Made by a program: the position numbers and the translations under genes
In this document: piece by piece, positions 39,611 to 45,833 of the stretch
Layout: each line of letters begins with the position of its first letter
How positions within the stretch are numbered: the stretch's first letter is position 1
From: Candidatus Methanoperedens sp. BLZ2
GTDB lineage: Archaea; Halobacteriota; Methanosarcinia; Methanosarcinales; Methanoperedenaceae
Assembly (NCBI RefSeq): GCF_002487355.1
Contig: NZ_NTMG01000070.1
Span: 1-64,000, forward strand
Direction of reading: 5' to 3'
DNA: 64,000 nt
Notes under the pieces: model-generated
Database searches by the model: none
The model's input: the letters and a program-made list of their open reading frames with translations, nothing else
Told to the model about the DNA's origin: nothing

Positions 39611-40819
39611 CTACCTCTCTAATGCAGGGGCGAATTCTAAGCGGATCGAACGCTCCAGCAATGAAAATTCATGCTCCTGAAGGCCGGGTTGGAAGAGAGC
39701 TCCTGTCTCATTGTAGTTCGCGGCGAAGCAACCTCCCTGGAAATCTTCGGCGATGCCCAGAGCTTCACAAGCCGAGCGCAGCTTCATGCAGGTTATCAGT
39801 TCAAACCTGTTGGAGAAGTTGGTTAACCCGTATTCTACATCACCTAACTTTGCGAGGAGCTGCCTATTATTTAAGGACAGTACCTTTGAACAGGATGATA
39901 TCTCTCCATCAACGGATACGGATATGCTGTTGCGACCCGCTCTGCAACCGAAGAAGCTGGAGCCTTTATCTTCTGCGTCCAACTCCGCAATACGAAGGTC
40001 TCTACGACGTTCTTTCCTGTACCACTTAGCGATTTTCCTTAGCTCTCGGCCGTAAGTTTCCCTTTTTTCCTTGGACCACTCCACACCTGTAGCATGACCG
40101 ATCATAAATTGGTTTACGCCCATACTGTAAAGCCCCAAAATATCTTCAAAGAGGCTGGCGACATTATCGGGCATGACGGTCATCTTGGTCCCTATCCAGG
40201 GCTGAGTTCTCTTCAATATTCTCATACTCTTCATAACTCGTGAGAATGTGCCCCGGCCTTTTTTATCCAGTCGATGGCGATCATGCGTAGACTCGCATCC
40301 ATCAATGCTCAGAAGCACATTTATTTTATGCTCATCGAGGTATTCTGCCATGGATTCATTTAACAAGATTCCGTTGCTCGTCATATTGAAATCAACAGAT
40401 TTTCCTGTGAGTCTGGCTTTATCCTCTGCGTACTCTGTGACAAACTGGACCATGGGAAAATTCAGAAGAGGTTCCCCACCAAAATGAGTTATGCTTAACT
40501 TAGTCTCATTCTGCGAATAATCGAAAAGAAGATCGATAGCAGCCTGGGCTACTTTCTCAGTCATCTTCTTGTGCTTAATCATTTCATTCTCAAAACAATA
40601 AGAGCATTTCAGATTGCATCCCTCAGTTAAGATCAGCTCCATGAAGGCCACAGGAGGGAAGAACTTTGCATTCAATTGTGCTACAATTTGATAAATAAGG
40701 TTATGTGCTTCGCCTGAAGATAAATTAAGCTCTTTTTCCAGGCGCTTGCAAAGTTGATGAAGATTAACAGGCTCTAATAAGAGAGCTGTGCTAATCTCCT
40801 CAACTAAATTGTCCTGCAT
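39611..40819 (-). CDS. Radical SAM/SPASM peptide-modifying enzyme
   Basis: The 402-residue protein has the radical SAM cluster motif CNLKCSYCFENE at about residues 69-77, followed by HFGGEPLLNFPMV. The C-terminal part holds the additional SPASM-type cysteines (FFGCRAGRNSI, ISSCSKVLS, ITCMKLRSACEALG, GGCFAANYN). The N-terminal ~65 residues resemble a peptide-recognition (RRE-like) helical domain. Enzymes of this build make thioether or other bonds in ribosomal peptides. The Cys-rich gene 74 bases upstream in the same direction is the obvious substrate candidate. Confidence 0.9.
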   Translation of the reverse strand: MQDNLVEEISTALLLEPVNLHQLCKRLEKELNLSSGEAHNLIYQIVAQLNAKFFPPVAFMELILTEGCNLKCSYCFENEMIKHKKMTEKVAQAAIDLLFDYSQNETKLSITHFGGEPLLNFPMVQFVTEYAEDKARLTGKSVDFNMTSNGILLNESMAEYLDEHKINVLLSIDGCESTHDRHRLDKKGRGTFSRVMKSMRILKRTQPWIGTKMTVMPDNVASLFEDILGLYSMGVNQFMIGHATGVEWSKEKRETYGRELRKIAKWYRKERRRDLRIAELDAEDKGSSFFGCRAGRNSISVSVDGEISSCSKVLSLNNRQLLAKLGDVEYGLTNFSNRFELITCMKLRSACEALGIAEDFQGGCFAANYNETGALFQPGLQEHEFSLLERSIRLEFAPALER

Positions 40820-40893: not shown

Positions 40894-41112
40894 CTATTCT
40901 AATATCACCCTGGTGAAGCCGCCTCCGCATCTGAATGTGGTTGTGCACTCGAATGGGTCTTGATCACAAGAGTAAGAGCCCATAAAACCACATCTGAAGC
41001 AACCTCTTGCTAAAAGCCGGGATTCAGCAGATCCGGCCATCAGTGCCTCACCCATCTTTTTCGCAACTGCATCTGTTATATTCCTGATATCTTCTGGTGT
41101 CATCTCTCCCAT
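40894..41112 (-). CDS. Cys-rich peptide, candidate radical SAM substrate
   Basis: A 72-residue protein with an amphipathic, acidic N-terminal half (MTPEDIRNITDAVAKKMG) and a C-terminal half of Gly, Cys, Phe and Thr: GCFRCGFMGSYSCDQDPFEC and FRCGGGFTRV. Five cysteines lie in about 25 residues. The leader-like and core-like division is what a sactipeptide or ranthipeptide precursor shows. AGGAGGT is ideally placed before the ATG. The next gene on the strand is the SPASM enzyme. Confidence 0.6.
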   Translation of the reverse strand: MGEMTPEDIRNITDAVAKKMGEALMAGSAESRLLARGCFRCGFMGSYSCDQDPFECTTTFRCGGGFTRVILE

Positions 41113-41525: not shown

Positions 41526-42089
41526 ATGCAGAAAAGTGATATATCATCTCGCCGAAGAGCGCTTAAGAGTGAACTTAAAAGAGTGGTTAATGAGCTGAAG
41601 AAAGCCGGAGTCGAGAGGATCATATTATTCGGATCACTTGCCAAGGACGATATCGGTCCAGAAAGTGATATTGATTTGCTTGTGGTGCAGGAAACTAAAA
41701 AAAGGTTCATGGATAGGCTTTCGGAACTTTATGAGGTAATTAACCCTCGATATGCCCTTGATCTTCTTGTTTATACACCTTTGGAATTGCGAGATGATGG
41801 CTTCTCCAGGCAAAACATGATCTTGATGATGCAAATTTTTCTTCAGAAGGCGAACGATTCAATCGCTGAGCTCTGTGAGATGGCATCCCTGAAAGACAGC
41901 GATTTTAGAAACATTAAAAAACGCGCTGCAACGCTTGATATTTATTATATCCCGACGCGTTATCCCGATGGCCTCCCCGGTGGCATACCATCGGAAGCAT
42001 ATCTAAAAGAGGATGCACAAAGGGCACTTTCGATATGCAATGAAGTTATTGATCTGGTTGAAAAGAAAATCGGAATGGTAAAGATTTAG
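41526..42089 (+). CDS. MNT nucleotidyltransferase fused to a partial HEPN domain
   Basis: The 187-residue protein starts with a minimal nucleotidyltransferase (residues ~10-105): ERIILFGSLAKDDIGPESDI and DLLV have the G-S-x10-D-x-D catalytic pattern. The C-terminal part (residues ~115-187) reads like the second half of a HEPN domain (YIPTRYPDGLPGG, then EAYLKEDAQRALSICNEV). Normally MNT antitoxin and HEPN toxin are two genes. Here one frame contains both, and the first HEPN helices are missing, so toxicity is doubtful. The gene was probably formed by deletion; hdrB converges behind it. Confidence 0.75.
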   Translation: MQKSDISSRRRALKSELKRVVNELKKAGVERIILFGSLAKDDIGPESDIDLLVVQETKKRFMDRLSELYEVINPRYALDLLVYTPLELRDDGFSRQNMILMMQIFLQKANDSIAELCEMASLKDSDFRNIKKRAATLDIYYIPTRYPDGLPGGIPSEAYLKEDAQRALSICNEVIDLVEKKIGMVKI

Positions 42090-42092
42090 AGA

Positions 42093-43001
42093 TCATTTAA
42101 CTGATGTATCTTTTTTCTGTATTCTGGCGATCTTATCTTCAAATTCATGGCTCCTGACAGCATTGAGGTGCAGCCCGACTTCTTCGGGCGTATAGCCGAA
42201 TGCAAGGCCGAGCAGCTGGCTGTAATGAACAACCGGGATATTGTAGGTTTTTCCTGATTTTGCAAGTTCTGCCTGCCCGCCATCGTACTGCAGATGACAA
42301 AACGGACATGCTTCTACAATGCAGTCAACGCCAGCTTTTTTGATCCGGTCAAGTTTATATTCTGTCATCTTAAATGAAGTCTCAAGCATTGCTGAACGGA
42401 CACCCCCACCAGCGCCGCAGCAGCTTGTTTTTCCTTCATACGGGACACTTACAGCGCCTGTTGCTTCAACAAGTTCATCAAAAAACACAGGGCATTCTGC
42501 GCCCCCGAGTTTTCTTTCTTTTGTTGGTTTCAGTAGATGACAGCCATAATGCACAGCAACTCTCAGTTCAAGGGGTCTTTCAATTAATTTATTCAGGTTT
42601 TTTGCACCGATTTCTTTACTGAGGAATTCAATTATATGCCTGACCTCGATAGTACCTTTATACTCCTTATTGATCTTTTTAAGATGTAAATTCACTTTAT
42701 CTCGAAGGGCTGCATCGTTCTTTAAGATATTATTGGCATCCAGGAGGGAACTGAAGCAGCCATTGCAGACCGTCAGCAAATCCCGGTTATTTTCTTCGGC
42801 CAGCACTATGTTCCTTGAAGCGATCGTGAGCCATGTTACTTTATCAAACGAACGGAATATCCCGGGCGCGGGACAGCATGAAGCTTCCTTTAGCTCACTC
42901 CATTTTAACCCCAGCCTGTCAAGGATTAACCTTGTGGCCTTTTCGATGCCAGGATAACGGTTAGGGATCACGCATCCCAGGAAAAGAGATAAGTCCTTCA
43001 T
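42093..43001 (-). CDS. hdrB: Heterodisulfide reductase subunit B (HdrB)
   Basis: HdrB carries the non-cubane iron-sulfur site that reduces CoM-S-S-CoB. The 302-residue protein has two CCG-type motifs, EASCCPAPGIF near residues 37-48 and TSCCGAGGGVRSAM with CPFCHLQYD, plus FLGCVIPNR at the start and YGCHLL. It is coupled to hdrC by a four-base overlap. No HdrA is adjacent, so it may use a partner encoded elsewhere. Confidence 0.92.
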   Translation of the reverse strand: MKDLSLFLGCVIPNRYPGIEKATRLILDRLGLKWSELKEASCCPAPGIFRSFDKVTWLTIASRNIVLAEENNRDLLTVCNGCFSSLLDANNILKNDAALRDKVNLHLKKINKEYKGTIEVRHIIEFLSKEIGAKNLNKLIERPLELRVAVHYGCHLLKPTKERKLGGAECPVFFDELVEATGAVSVPYEGKTSCCGAGGGVRSAMLETSFKMTEYKLDRIKKAGVDCIVEACPFCHLQYDGGQAELAKSGKTYNIPVVHYSQLLGLAFGYTPEEVGLHLNAVRSHEFEDKIARIQKKDTSVK

Positions 43002-43441
43002 TCTTTTACCAGCTCATTAAAACCGCATGATTCAAGAAGTATTTTTACATCATTTAGCGCTTTCGGGTATTTACTTACTGTCTCAGGCTGCGAAAGCCCG
43101 ATTCTTTCCCTGATTGCTATATGAATATCATCAATTGGGACTGCATGCCCCACCTCAATAAGAAATTTGCATACAGCCCTGTGGGCAGGCAGTATCCTGC
43201 CTTTTCTCACAGCTTCGGCACGAAGGGAAAGGATGGCATCTGTGACTTTTATTCCGCGCGGGCATCTTTCCTGGCAGTTATAGCAGGTCGTACACATCCA
43301 GAGGTCCGGCTGATCTGAGATGTCTTTTTTTATGGAATCTTTAACGATCCGTCTCACATTCAGGCTTGTGTACTTTCCAGAGGGGCAGCTTCCCGTACAT
43401 GTACCGCACTGGAAACAGGAGAGAATCTCGGAATTTTTCAT
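42998..43441 (-). CDS. hdrC: Heterodisulfide reductase subunit C (HdrC)
   Basis: The 147-residue electron-transfer subunit has two [4Fe-4S] sites: CFQCGTCTGSCPSGKYT near the N-terminus and CTTCYNCQERCPRGIKVTDAI. It passes electrons from HdrA to HdrB. The stop overlaps the hdrB start. The gene order hdrC-hdrB is that of soluble HdrABC complexes; hdrA is missing here. Confidence 0.92.
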   Translation of the reverse strand: MKNSEILSCFQCGTCTGSCPSGKYTSLNVRRIVKDSIKKDISDQPDLWMCTTCYNCQERCPRGIKVTDAILSLRAEAVRKGRILPAHRAVCKFLIEVGHAVPIDDIHIAIRERIGLSQPETVSKYPKALNDVKILLESCGFNELVKE

Positions 43442-43496: not shown

Positions 43497-43505
43497 TATA
43501 AATAT
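43497..43505 (+). promoter_or_regulatory. TATA box of small RNA copy 1
   Basis: TATAAATAT lies 31 bases upstream of the first base of the GACGAGCGG hairpin. The second small RNA has TTAAATATGA at 43657, again 31 bases before ACGAGCGG. Equal spacing in two copies supports a real promoter. Confidence 0.65.
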
Positions 43506-43527
43506 CATAATGATCATTATTATATAT

Positions 43528-43594
43528 GACGAGCGGTCGGATTTTTTTAAATAACCCACCACTCCCACTCCCCGTCCGCTCGTCAATGTTTTTC
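43528..43594 (+). ncRNA. Candidate small structured RNA, copy 1
   Basis: GACGAGCGGTCGG (43528-43540) pairs with CCGTCCGCTCGTC (43572-43584) in 12 of 13 positions. The 31-base loop is T-rich and then C-rich (TAACCCACCACTCCCACTCC). A T-run (43589-43593) follows the stem. There is no long frame. A copy lies 160 bases downstream. The C-rich loop could pair with GGAG/GGTGG ribosome binding sites of target mRNAs, but that is inference. Confidence 0.7.
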
Positions 43595-43656
43595 AATATT
43601 TTCCCCAAAATATCAGACCGGTATGATCATATTATCATCACGTGTGAGGAAAAAGG

Positions 43657-43666
43657 TTAAATATGA
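43657..43666 (+). promoter_or_regulatory. TATA box of small RNA copy 2
   Basis: TTAAATATGA sits 31 bases before ACGAGCGG of the second hairpin, matching the arrangement at 43497. The sequence between TATA and start is different in the two copies, so the promoter spacing is conserved rather than simply copied. Confidence 0.6.
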
Positions 43667-43687
43667 TACGTATTATAGTTATGTATA

Positions 43688-43753
43688 ACGAGCGGTCGGA
43701 TTTTTTTAATAACCTACCACCCCCATACCTCTGACCGCCCGTTTGTGTTTTTT
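43688..43753 (+). ncRNA. Candidate small structured RNA, copy 2
   Basis: ACGAGCGGTC (43688-43697) pairs with GACCGCCCGT (43733-43742) with one A-C mismatch. The left arm and the first part of the loop (GGATTTTTTTAA, TAACCTACCACCCCCA) repeat copy 1, but the right arm has changed, and pairing is kept. A T-run (43748-43753) follows. The element ends 29 bases before the convergent thioredoxin-fold gene. Confidence 0.7.
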
Positions 43754-43781: not shown

Positions 43782-44444
43782 TTAAGAGTACATTGGATTG
43801 TAGGCAGAGCGTAGCGCCAGTAATATCTGTTCAATAAATACTTCCGGAGGTTGTGCACCTAAGAATGAGGTATCATTGTTGATCACAATGTGAGGAACGC
43901 TCATAACTCTGTACCTCTGGGCAAGGTAAGGGAACTCAATCATTTCTATTACATCAGAACGAATATTTTCATTTTCAATTGCAAACTGGTGCGCTATCCT
44001 TGCAGCTTTAGGGCAATAAGGGCACGTTGGTGAAACAAATACCTGCAAATGCACGGGTTTTTTTATTTCTGAAAGTTTTGTCTTTAATGCATCGGATAAT
44101 GATGTTTTTCCCCTGGAAACATCAACTATCGTATCGATCAAAGACGCCAGTTCATATCCCGCAGGTACGCCATAATACCTGACGCCATAATCAGTTTTCC
44201 CCACAATCGCTATGGCAGGGATATTTTTAATCTTATAATTCATGGCTTCATCGCCATTCAATACAAAGTCATATACTTTTACTTTTATTTTTTCTGATAA
44301 TGTCCCCAATTCAAGCACCCACTCTCTTGTTTCCTTGCAGAACTGGCACTCAGACTCCTGTGAAAAAACAATAAGTTCCACATCGTCTGCAAGGTCCACA
44401 AATTTTCTCTGGATAGTTTGCTTATCGCTCTCCTGGAGCACCAT
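43782..44444 (-). CDS. Protein disulfide oxidoreductase, two-domain thioredoxin fold
   Basis: The 220-residue protein contains two thioredoxin-like halves: ESECQFCKETREW near residues 30-42 with a C-x2-C active site, and SPTCPYCPKAARIAHQF in the second half with CPYC. KNIPAIAIVG and VMSVPHIVI supply the cis-proline after each site. This is the archaeal PDO/glutaredoxin-like family for cytosolic thiol-disulfide exchange. It is the last gene of an operon with an ArsR-like regulator and a small membrane protein. Confidence 0.9.
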   Translation of the reverse strand: MVLQESDKQTIQRKFVDLADDVELIVFSQESECQFCKETREWVLELGTLSEKIKVKVYDFVLNGDEAMNYKIKNIPAIAIVGKTDYGVRYYGVPAGYELASLIDTIVDVSRGKTSLSDALKTKLSEIKKPVHLQVFVSPTCPYCPKAARIAHQFAIENENIRSDVIEMIEFPYLAQRYRVMSVPHIVINNDTSFLGAQPPEVFIEQILLALRSAYNPMYS

Positions 44445-44632: not shown

Positions 44633-44926
44633 TTACTCCTTTTTTACTATCTCCTTGATTCTACTTAATGAAAGTACTAATTCAAAATTCTTTGCTTTAT
44701 AGTATTTCTTTGTATATGGAGGCTCTTCAAAATGCCTTATCTCATTTTCCACAAGACCGGCATTTTCAAGTTTCTTAAGGTGAAGATACAGGAGCGGACG
44801 TGAAATTCCCACTTCCTTGGCAAGCTCAGATACATAACATTCACATTCGGCAAGTGTTGCCAGGATCTTTAAGCTATGCTCGTTACCAAGCGCATTTAGC
44901 ATTTCCGCAAGGGATTTCTTATCCAC
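44633..44926 (-). CDS. ArsR-like winged-helix regulator
   Basis: A 97-residue winged-helix protein: ALGNEHSLKILATLAE, the turn CECYVSELAKEVGISRPLLYLHL as recognition helix and KLENAGLVENEIRHF as wing. Cys30 and Cys32 (CEC) sit before helix 3 and could sense redox or metals. It heads the operon with the small membrane protein and PDO, so it probably controls them. A TATA-like stretch (CATATTTAAAATAAAG on the minus strand side, ~44960) lies upstream. Confidence 0.8.
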   Translation of the reverse strand: MDKKSLAEMLNALGNEHSLKILATLAECECYVSELAKEVGISRPLLYLHLKKLENAGLVENEIRHFEEPPYTKKYYKAKNFELVLSLSRIKEIVKKE

Positions 44927-45008: not shown

Positions 45009-45833
45009 TTATTCTACTTCCAGCACTTTTTCAAATGTACCATGCCAGCCGTGATACCAGACAGCGCCTGTGTAGCTGTTAACGCTGAGCATGCCGTAAA
45101 TATTTCCGTCTTTTGTTACTTCCATTGTGTAGTAACCATAGAAATCATCCGCACCGTTCACTTTCGTTCCTGGCAGGGTACTGTCAAGATATTCCTGTGC
45201 ATTCTTCAGGGCCTGTTCTTCTGTCACTTTCGTTTCTGTTTCTTGTGTGTTCATATATCCATATTTTGAATTCCACATCATATTCGGCCCCATTTCAGGA
45301 ACTACTGCACCTGTATATTTGTTAATGAGGAGTTCAAAAGCATATTTGCCTGTGCTCTTCTCTTTTATCCCTGCATAGAAGTTGTTTTCGAATTGCAGTA
45401 TCTCAGCGATCTTAAGGTCATTATTTCCAGTCTTTGTAAGATATTGCTCCACTGATGCTTTTGCTTCATCGATGTTTATGGGGGTTGAATTTTCCCCATA
45501 GGTCGCGGCATTTGCGCCGCAGTGATTTCCATAAACGGATCCATCACCGGTCATCATTCCACTGCCGCCCATCATGCCGATTCCATTTCTGCCCATCATG
45601 CCATTGGCCGTTCCGGAACCGTTCATCATGCCTCCTCCCATCATGCCAATACCAGGTCCGTAACCACTCATCATGCCGCCGCCCATCATGCCGATTCCAT
45701 TTCCGCCCATCATGCCATTACCAGTTCCATAGCCCATCATGCCATTCCAGAAATTACCAGGTCTTGCCACGGCATAACCTGCTCCCAGGACTACAATGAT
45801 TGCTGCTATAACCAGGATCATTTTAGTGTTCAT
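45009..45833 (-). CDS. Exported Met/Gly-rich protein with PepSY-like domains
   Basis: The 274-residue protein has a single N-terminal hydrophobic helix (ILVIAAIIVVLGAGYAVA) as signal anchor. Residues ~30-95 are repeats of the type GNGMMGG, with about twenty Met. The C-terminal ~150 residues contain two PepSY-like repeats (YAFELLINKYTGAVVPEM and IYGMLSVNSYTGAVWYHG). Met-rich runs bind Cu(I) in copper proteins, and PepSY domains bind or inhibit at the cell surface. A copper or metal buffering role outside the cell is plausible, not shown. Confidence 0.75.
   Translation of the reverse strand: MNTKMILVIAAIIVVLGAGYAVARPGNFWNGMMGYGTGNGMMGGNGIGMMGGGMMSGYGPGIGMMGGGMMNGSGTANGMMGRNGIGMMGGSGMMTGDGSVYGNHCGANAATYGENSTPINIDEAKASVEQYLTKTGNNDLKIAEILQFENNFYAGIKEKSTGKYAFELLINKYTGAVVPEMGPNMMWNSKYGYMNTQETETKVTEEQALKNAQEYLDSTLPGTKVNGADDFYGYYTMEVTKDGNIYGMLSVNSYTGAVWYHGWHGTFEKVLEVE

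Follow-up and report, generated by a model that had tools for sequence, protein, structure and literature searches.

A tandem pair of hairpins in Candidatus Methanoperedens, very probably small RNA genes of a large archaeal family with G-free, C-rich loops

Positions 43497-43753 of the window (the whole 64,000-nucleotide stretch of Candidatus Methanoperedens DNA that was analysed) contain two hairpins in tandem, which raise the questions of whether they are small RNA genes and what their C-rich loops might do. The original prediction, of tandem small RNA genes with equal promoter spacing and an exposed C-rich loop, is supported. The start-to-start distance is 159 nt rather than the 160 first given. 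The 3.74 Mb genome has exactly two copies of the 20-mer GAGCGGTCGGATTTTTTTAA that the elements were said to share, at 43531 and 43690, and the AAATAT of the TATA box lies 31 nt 5' of GAGCGG in both copies (starts 43500 and 43659), as had been described. The C-rich loops (TAACCCACCACTCCCA and TAACCTACCACCCCCA) and the T-runs behind both elements were likewise found as claimed, and no ORF of at least 60 amino acids overlaps either hairpin, in agreement with the stated lack of a frame. The features of the two predicted genes, here called RNA a and RNA b, are the following.

43497..43505, plus strand: TATA box of RNA a, TATAAATAT, from the sequence
43502..43525, no strand: AT-rich palindrome ATATCATAATGATCATTATTATAT between the TATA box and the start of RNA a, candidate operator (inverted-repeat search, 93% complementary)
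43527..43585, plus strand: predicted small RNA a with one large loop, stem 43527-43540 with 43572-43585 (fold; 60/60 identity in two relatives)
43542..43548, plus strand: U7 run in the loop of RNA a, from the sequence
43555..43573, plus strand: C-rich, G-free loop segment of RNA a, CCCACCACTCCCACTCCCC, from the sequence
43589..43593, plus strand: T-run after RNA a, candidate 3' end, from the sequence
43657..43664, plus strand: TATA-like box of RNA b, TTAAATAT, from the sequence; its distance to GAGCGG equals that in a
43662..43677, no strand: palindrome TATGATACGTATTATA, candidate operator of b, with a perfect form TATGATACGTATCATA in locus L004
43687..43743, plus strand: predicted small RNA b, a stem and one large loop (fold; 57/61 identity in both relatives)
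43701..43707, plus strand: U7 run in the loop of RNA b, from the sequence
43713..43731, plus strand: C-rich, G-free loop segment of RNA b, CCTACCACCCCCATACCTC, unlike that of a and retained in three other species
43748..43753, plus strand: T-run after RNA b, candidate 3' end, from the sequence

Both elements fold into the strong stems that had been proposed, with energies of -23.1 kcal/mol for RNA a (z -5.6 against shuffles) and -17.5 to -17.9 kcal/mol for RNA b (z -3.4 to -4.4), and their stems consist of partly different pairs, with an A-C mismatch in b. The difference between the right arms of a and b had been taken as a sign of selection on structure, but the comparison of the two copies alone contains no covariation because their left arms are identical while their right arms differ. 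Selection on structure is nevertheless seen in the relatives, where pairing-preserving changes do occur. The close set of 18 distinct sequences, aligned with MAFFT and not fitted to the model, has 92.4% of its stem cells paired and 18 two-sided cells, as compared with none when the arms were slid by -3 to +2, and none or one over slides of one to three columns. The wide set (96 distinct rows of 101 members), whose alignment was fitted to the covariance model and thereby favours the structure, has 93.6% of its stem cells paired, 190 two-sided compensatory cells versus 60 in shuffles and 10-32 in slid versions, and a covariation score of 0.485 versus 0.232 in shuffles. Changes on both sides occur in nine of the 11 stem pairs. 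Once the end pairs are excluded, over half of the stem cells that are not Watson-Crick are G-U, and G-U outnumbers other mismatches, which points to RNA. The stem structure is thus kept by compensatory change.

Two related species share the gene order, and in them RNA a is identical over 60 bases, while RNA b is 93% identical (57/61). Both promoters are 91-97% identical in these relatives, whereas the a-b spacer is only 71% and 22% identical. About 15 species of the genus, as well as another family of the order, have homologues at the DNA level, which sit among differing neighbour genes; the named contigs with the closest matches are from Candidatus Methanoperedens (ANME-2d) and one GoM-Arc1 archaeon. 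Elsewhere in the genus the gene adjoins other genes, such as rtcA or a HAD-like gene (both names assigned by eye from the translation), and three copies stand in a row in one of its species. The loop of RNA b, CCTACCACCCCCATACCTCT, is kept in four species with small changes and remains distinct from that of a, so the two copies are not interchangeable.

The close relatives supplied a covariance model, with which the order and then the phylum were searched. Across the order, matches at E <= 0.01 were obtained in 173 of 186 genomes, including 117 of the 118 good ones, with mostly 3-15 matches per genome in Methanoperedens and 1-6 in the Methanosarcina-type family. The window genome contains 9-15 family copies, many of them in tandem. 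The phylum-wide search at E <= 0.001 matched 84 of 393 genomes, 70 of them in the order and 13 in a single further family within the same class, with one doubtful case elsewhere. Antisense matches, such as the one at L003 1493-1559 (minus strand), fall on the palindromic stem and were treated as artefacts of stem symmetry because the TATA boxes lie on the sense side. The family is large, old and class-wide, spanning the class of Methanoperedens and Methanosarcina. Various subtypes are located just upstream of rtcA (RNA 3'-phosphate cyclase, by eye) in several Methanoperedens species (L010-L017), and the window genome also has a family copy upstream of rtcA, at L089 1478-1728.

Most members have TATA-like words starting at -33 to -27 from the stem, and such words occur in the interval -31 to -23 in 63 of 92 members, as compared with 8.8 in dinucleotide shuffles (maximum 18). 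Judged by this sequence pattern, the family members have promoters of their own. Promoters in a related methanogen are reported to lie about 19-22 nt from the start site (PMC5378194), which would place the start of transcription at or just before the stem. The loop is 26-64 nt long and has a G content of 1.4%, versus 14% in the flanks. Its longest T run measures 4-8 in all 84 of the 84 members and 6 or 7 in 66 of them. A core of CACTCCC is present in 68/84 members (ACTCCC in 70/84), and the core CCCACUCCC in 65/84, including paralogues and distant genera, with an unpaired probability of 0.94 for the C-core. The core is present twice in some Methanosarcina copies, and some paralogues have other cores, such as ACCACCATAATCC in L095 and L105.

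We are highly confident that the hairpins represent genuine small RNA genes belonging to a single family. Each gene would be transcribed from its own promoter, beginning at or just before the stem, into an RNA of about 60-67 nt, in which the stem would join the 5' and 3' ends and hold open the G-free loop with its U-run and C-rich segment. The C-rich segment may act in trans, with G-rich stretches of mRNAs as its pairing partners at translation starts or elsewhere; the U-run is a putative docking point for an RNA-binding protein, for example archaeal Lsm/SmAP; and the timing of the pair's expression could be set by a transcription factor bound to the palindrome that lies between the TATA box and the start. 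For the statement as a whole, that is, two paralogous, promoter-bearing sRNA genes of a multi-copy, single-hairpin family whose loops pair with mRNAs in trans, the evidence tips slightly in favour. Since the loops of a and b differ and each is separately conserved, the two RNAs probably have different sets of targets.

Pairing in trans is favoured because the closest system in its working parts is Listeria LhrC, whose multi-copy, G-poor RNAs contain CUCCC and U-runs and bind to G-rich sites before the start codon (PMC4132741). Similar to LhrC1-5, and to the UCCC-motif RNAs RsaE and FsrA of Gram-positive bacteria, the family consists of multi-copy, G-poor siblings that expose CUCCC beside U-runs (PMC4132741), a likeness that carries no claim of common descent, as the model search covered the archaeal phylum. 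Multi-copy siblings (9-15 copies) and an unpaired CUCCC or UCCC with a nearby U-run were both found here. The C-rich loops are the interaction sites in LhrC (PMC4132741), and by analogy the probable role of this family is to regulate other genes by way of the exposed C-rich loop. Unlike LhrC, the family is archaeal, with archaeal promoters, and has one hairpin that joins both ends around a loop of 26-64 nt.

The more specific proposal that the loops pair with G-rich ribosome binding sites finds no support so far. CCTCC, the complement of the ordinary Shine-Dalgarno core, is present in only 6/84 members. Targets were sought by pattern searches and in a 400 kb sample, the duplex scan, for which a simple rule assigned the start sites, covering 359 genes (about 10% of the genome). 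No site complementary to either 19-nt loop with up to three mismatches was found in the window genome beyond the RNA genes themselves, and the genomes searched contained no long loop complements beyond one site with three mismatches in G003. The loops matched the start regions of the 359-gene sample no better, in fact worse, than shuffled loops, and the scans revealed no strongly complementary start site for either loop. Two candidates were rejected. A perfect GGGAGTGGG before ATG has two matches in the window genome, neither of which is a convincing gene start. The strongest duplex, at an AlbA-like gene (by eye; L256 8571-10020, minus strand) with -28 kcal/mol, is not significant against shuffled loops, of which 6% for a and 2.4% for b were equally good among the 359 genes tried.

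The lack of targets in these scans would also be expected if the RNAs are real but the loop mainly binds a protein, such as a C-rich or U-rich single-strand binder, so that they act as a sponge or as the RNA of a ribonucleoprotein rather than by pairing with mRNA. The uniformity of the core makes this a serious rival, as CCCACUCCC is more uniform (65/84) than separate mRNA targets for each copy would lead one to expect, and its doubling in some Methanosarcina copies points the same way. However, other cores are found in some paralogues (ACCACCATAATCC, L095 and L105), and the loops of a and b differ while each is conserved between species, which suits separate partners better. We consider a mainly protein-binding role rather unlikely, if well worth weighing against trans pairing with mRNAs.

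Dispersed, multi-copy intergenic hairpins, some with T-runs behind them, could also be terminators, repetitive extragenic palindromes, transposon ends or DNA cruciforms with no dedicated transcript. This is very improbable given the TATA box that lies on one side at a constant distance, the covariation that tolerates G-U, the conserved G-free loop, the conservation of the promoter but not the spacer, and the absence of any recognised mobile gene beside the copies examined. Nor is the pair the leader of either neighbour, since it is transcribed away from the upstream hdrC-like gene (42998-43441, minus strand) and towards the 3' end of the downstream thioredoxin-like gene (43782-44444, minus strand). 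That members of the family are 5' leaders or attenuators of neighbouring genes is suggested by the copy or pair just before rtcA on the same strand in several species, including the window genome (L089), but is hardly credible, as the gene that follows the pair in the window is on the opposite strand and most of the other copies lie beside unrelated genes or in unrelated gene orientations.

The candidate operators differ between groups of siblings. Members of the window type have an AT-rich palindrome, ATAATGATCATTAT or ATGATACGTATCAT, between the TATA box and the stem, with an inverted-repeat score of 5.44 versus 4.73 in shuffles (sd 0.18). A second group in the window genome has TTCGTATATATACGAA at that place and scores 6.82 versus 4.21, a value that is biased since the group was chosen by its half sites. 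The remaining 54 members have inverted-repeat scores without a clear excess. The TATA box combined with the window-type motif gave 14, 17, 11, 6, 9 and 2 matches in six genomes, as compared with 3, 2, 0, 2, 1 and 2 for the reversed pattern, and one independent match precedes another family hairpin (L160). In two species the motif also precedes genes whose large products look secreted, at L178 (G000:C5:11111) and L175 (G004:C49:94838), and these genes are possible further members of the same regulon. Sibling hairpins with the TTCGTATATATACGAA-type start-site palindrome include L093, L095 and L097 in the window genome and L105 in G005. Several siblings of this type have loops with ACCACCATAATCC-like segments, not CCCACTCCC, which suggests a second regulator and other targets.

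A tandem pair with C-rich loops and a start-site palindrome, ATAATGATCATTAT, that resembles an inner Fur box could be iron-responsive in the manner of RyhB, PrrF or FsrA, with Fur or DtxR at the palindrome, but this is extremely unlikely: no Fur-family protein (PF01475) was detected in the window genome, which rules out Fur control there, or in G004, both of which have the operator and the RNAs; the sole box of DtxR type that was seen, located upstream of dtxR-feoB in G015, reads TTAGGTGTACCTAA and differs from the palindrome, which leaves DtxR control unsupported; and the other operator-like sites are not beside recognisable iron genes. As a separate observation, Methanoperedens feoB is preceded by a DtxR-FeoA fusion-like gene (L180-L185), and the TTAGGTGTACCTAA box of G015 is placed directly before the start codon of such a gene.

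Returning to sibling RNAs that act through their loops, we regard it as possible, if short of probable, that the family is a class-wide ancestral system of sRNAs built on one display scaffold (the closing stem, the U-run and the G-free, C-rich loop) and wired to different transcription factors through different palindromes (ATAATGATCATTAT versus TTCGTATATATACGAA). If true, this would be a modular archaeal sRNA network comparable to the Hfq-dependent or LhrC-type networks of bacteria.

The family appears to be uncatalogued. No family in Rfam 15 matched the hairpins above the gathering threshold, the best weak matches being far below it; over the whole window, Rfam detected a tRNA alone; and the literature search found no study of small RNAs in Methanoperedens and no description of the family, with the sRNAs of M. 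mazei and M. psychrophilus compared by description only. The transcriptomes of M. mazei (PMC5867862) and M. psychrophilus (PMC5378194) list many sRNAs, and single family members may already have been detected among these transcripts. Like the family, M. mazei sRNA41 is an intergenic archaeal sRNA from the same order, and it masks ribosome binding sites in the polycistronic ACDS mRNA (PMC5867862). The ACDS start regions in three Methanosarcina genomes are of the GGAGGC or GGGGGC types (AGGAGGCGAAA type) and not the complement of CCCACUCCC. Membership of sRNA41 is unsupported because these ribosome binding sites do not match the family core. Paralogy and a conserved structure are shared with M. 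mazei sRNA162 and sRNA171, as would be the pairing with mRNAs, but those RNAs are 191 nt long with three stem-loops and have been reported only in three Methanosarcina species (PMC3510493). Methanolobus psychrophilus resembles the window genome, by description only, in having several similar intergenic sRNAs in one methanogen genome; nine conserved sRNAs are cold-induced there and have a common motif upstream of their promoters (PMC5378194).

The family gives a first way into RNA regulation among methane-oxidising archaea, extending from the methane-oxidising Methanoperedens to Methanosarcina with several copies per genome and unmistakable covariation. To our knowledge, functions have been assigned to few of the small RNAs of archaea, and most that have been described are restricted to a single genus. 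Gene knock-outs in Methanosarcina are routine, and through this family the questions of how archaeal sRNAs find their targets and which protein helps them would become directly testable in a model organism.

Other genes near the pair also deserve mention. The protein encoded at 45009-45833 (minus strand) looks secreted, has many GMMG repeats and matches PepSY weakly. An ArsR-family regulator (44633-44926) and the thioredoxin-like gene are close by, and this may be a metal-related cluster. On the other side, a small cysteine-rich ORF of 72 amino acids without a Pfam match (40894-41112, minus strand) is the immediate upstream neighbour of a gene for a radical SAM protein that has a 4Fe-4S domain (39611-40819, minus strand), an arrangement that looks like a peptide precursor and its modifying enzyme. 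Finally, a single ORF at 41526-42089 on the plus strand contains fused nucleotidyltransferase and HEPN domains, so that one protein combines the two parts of the MNT-HEPN toxin-antitoxin type.
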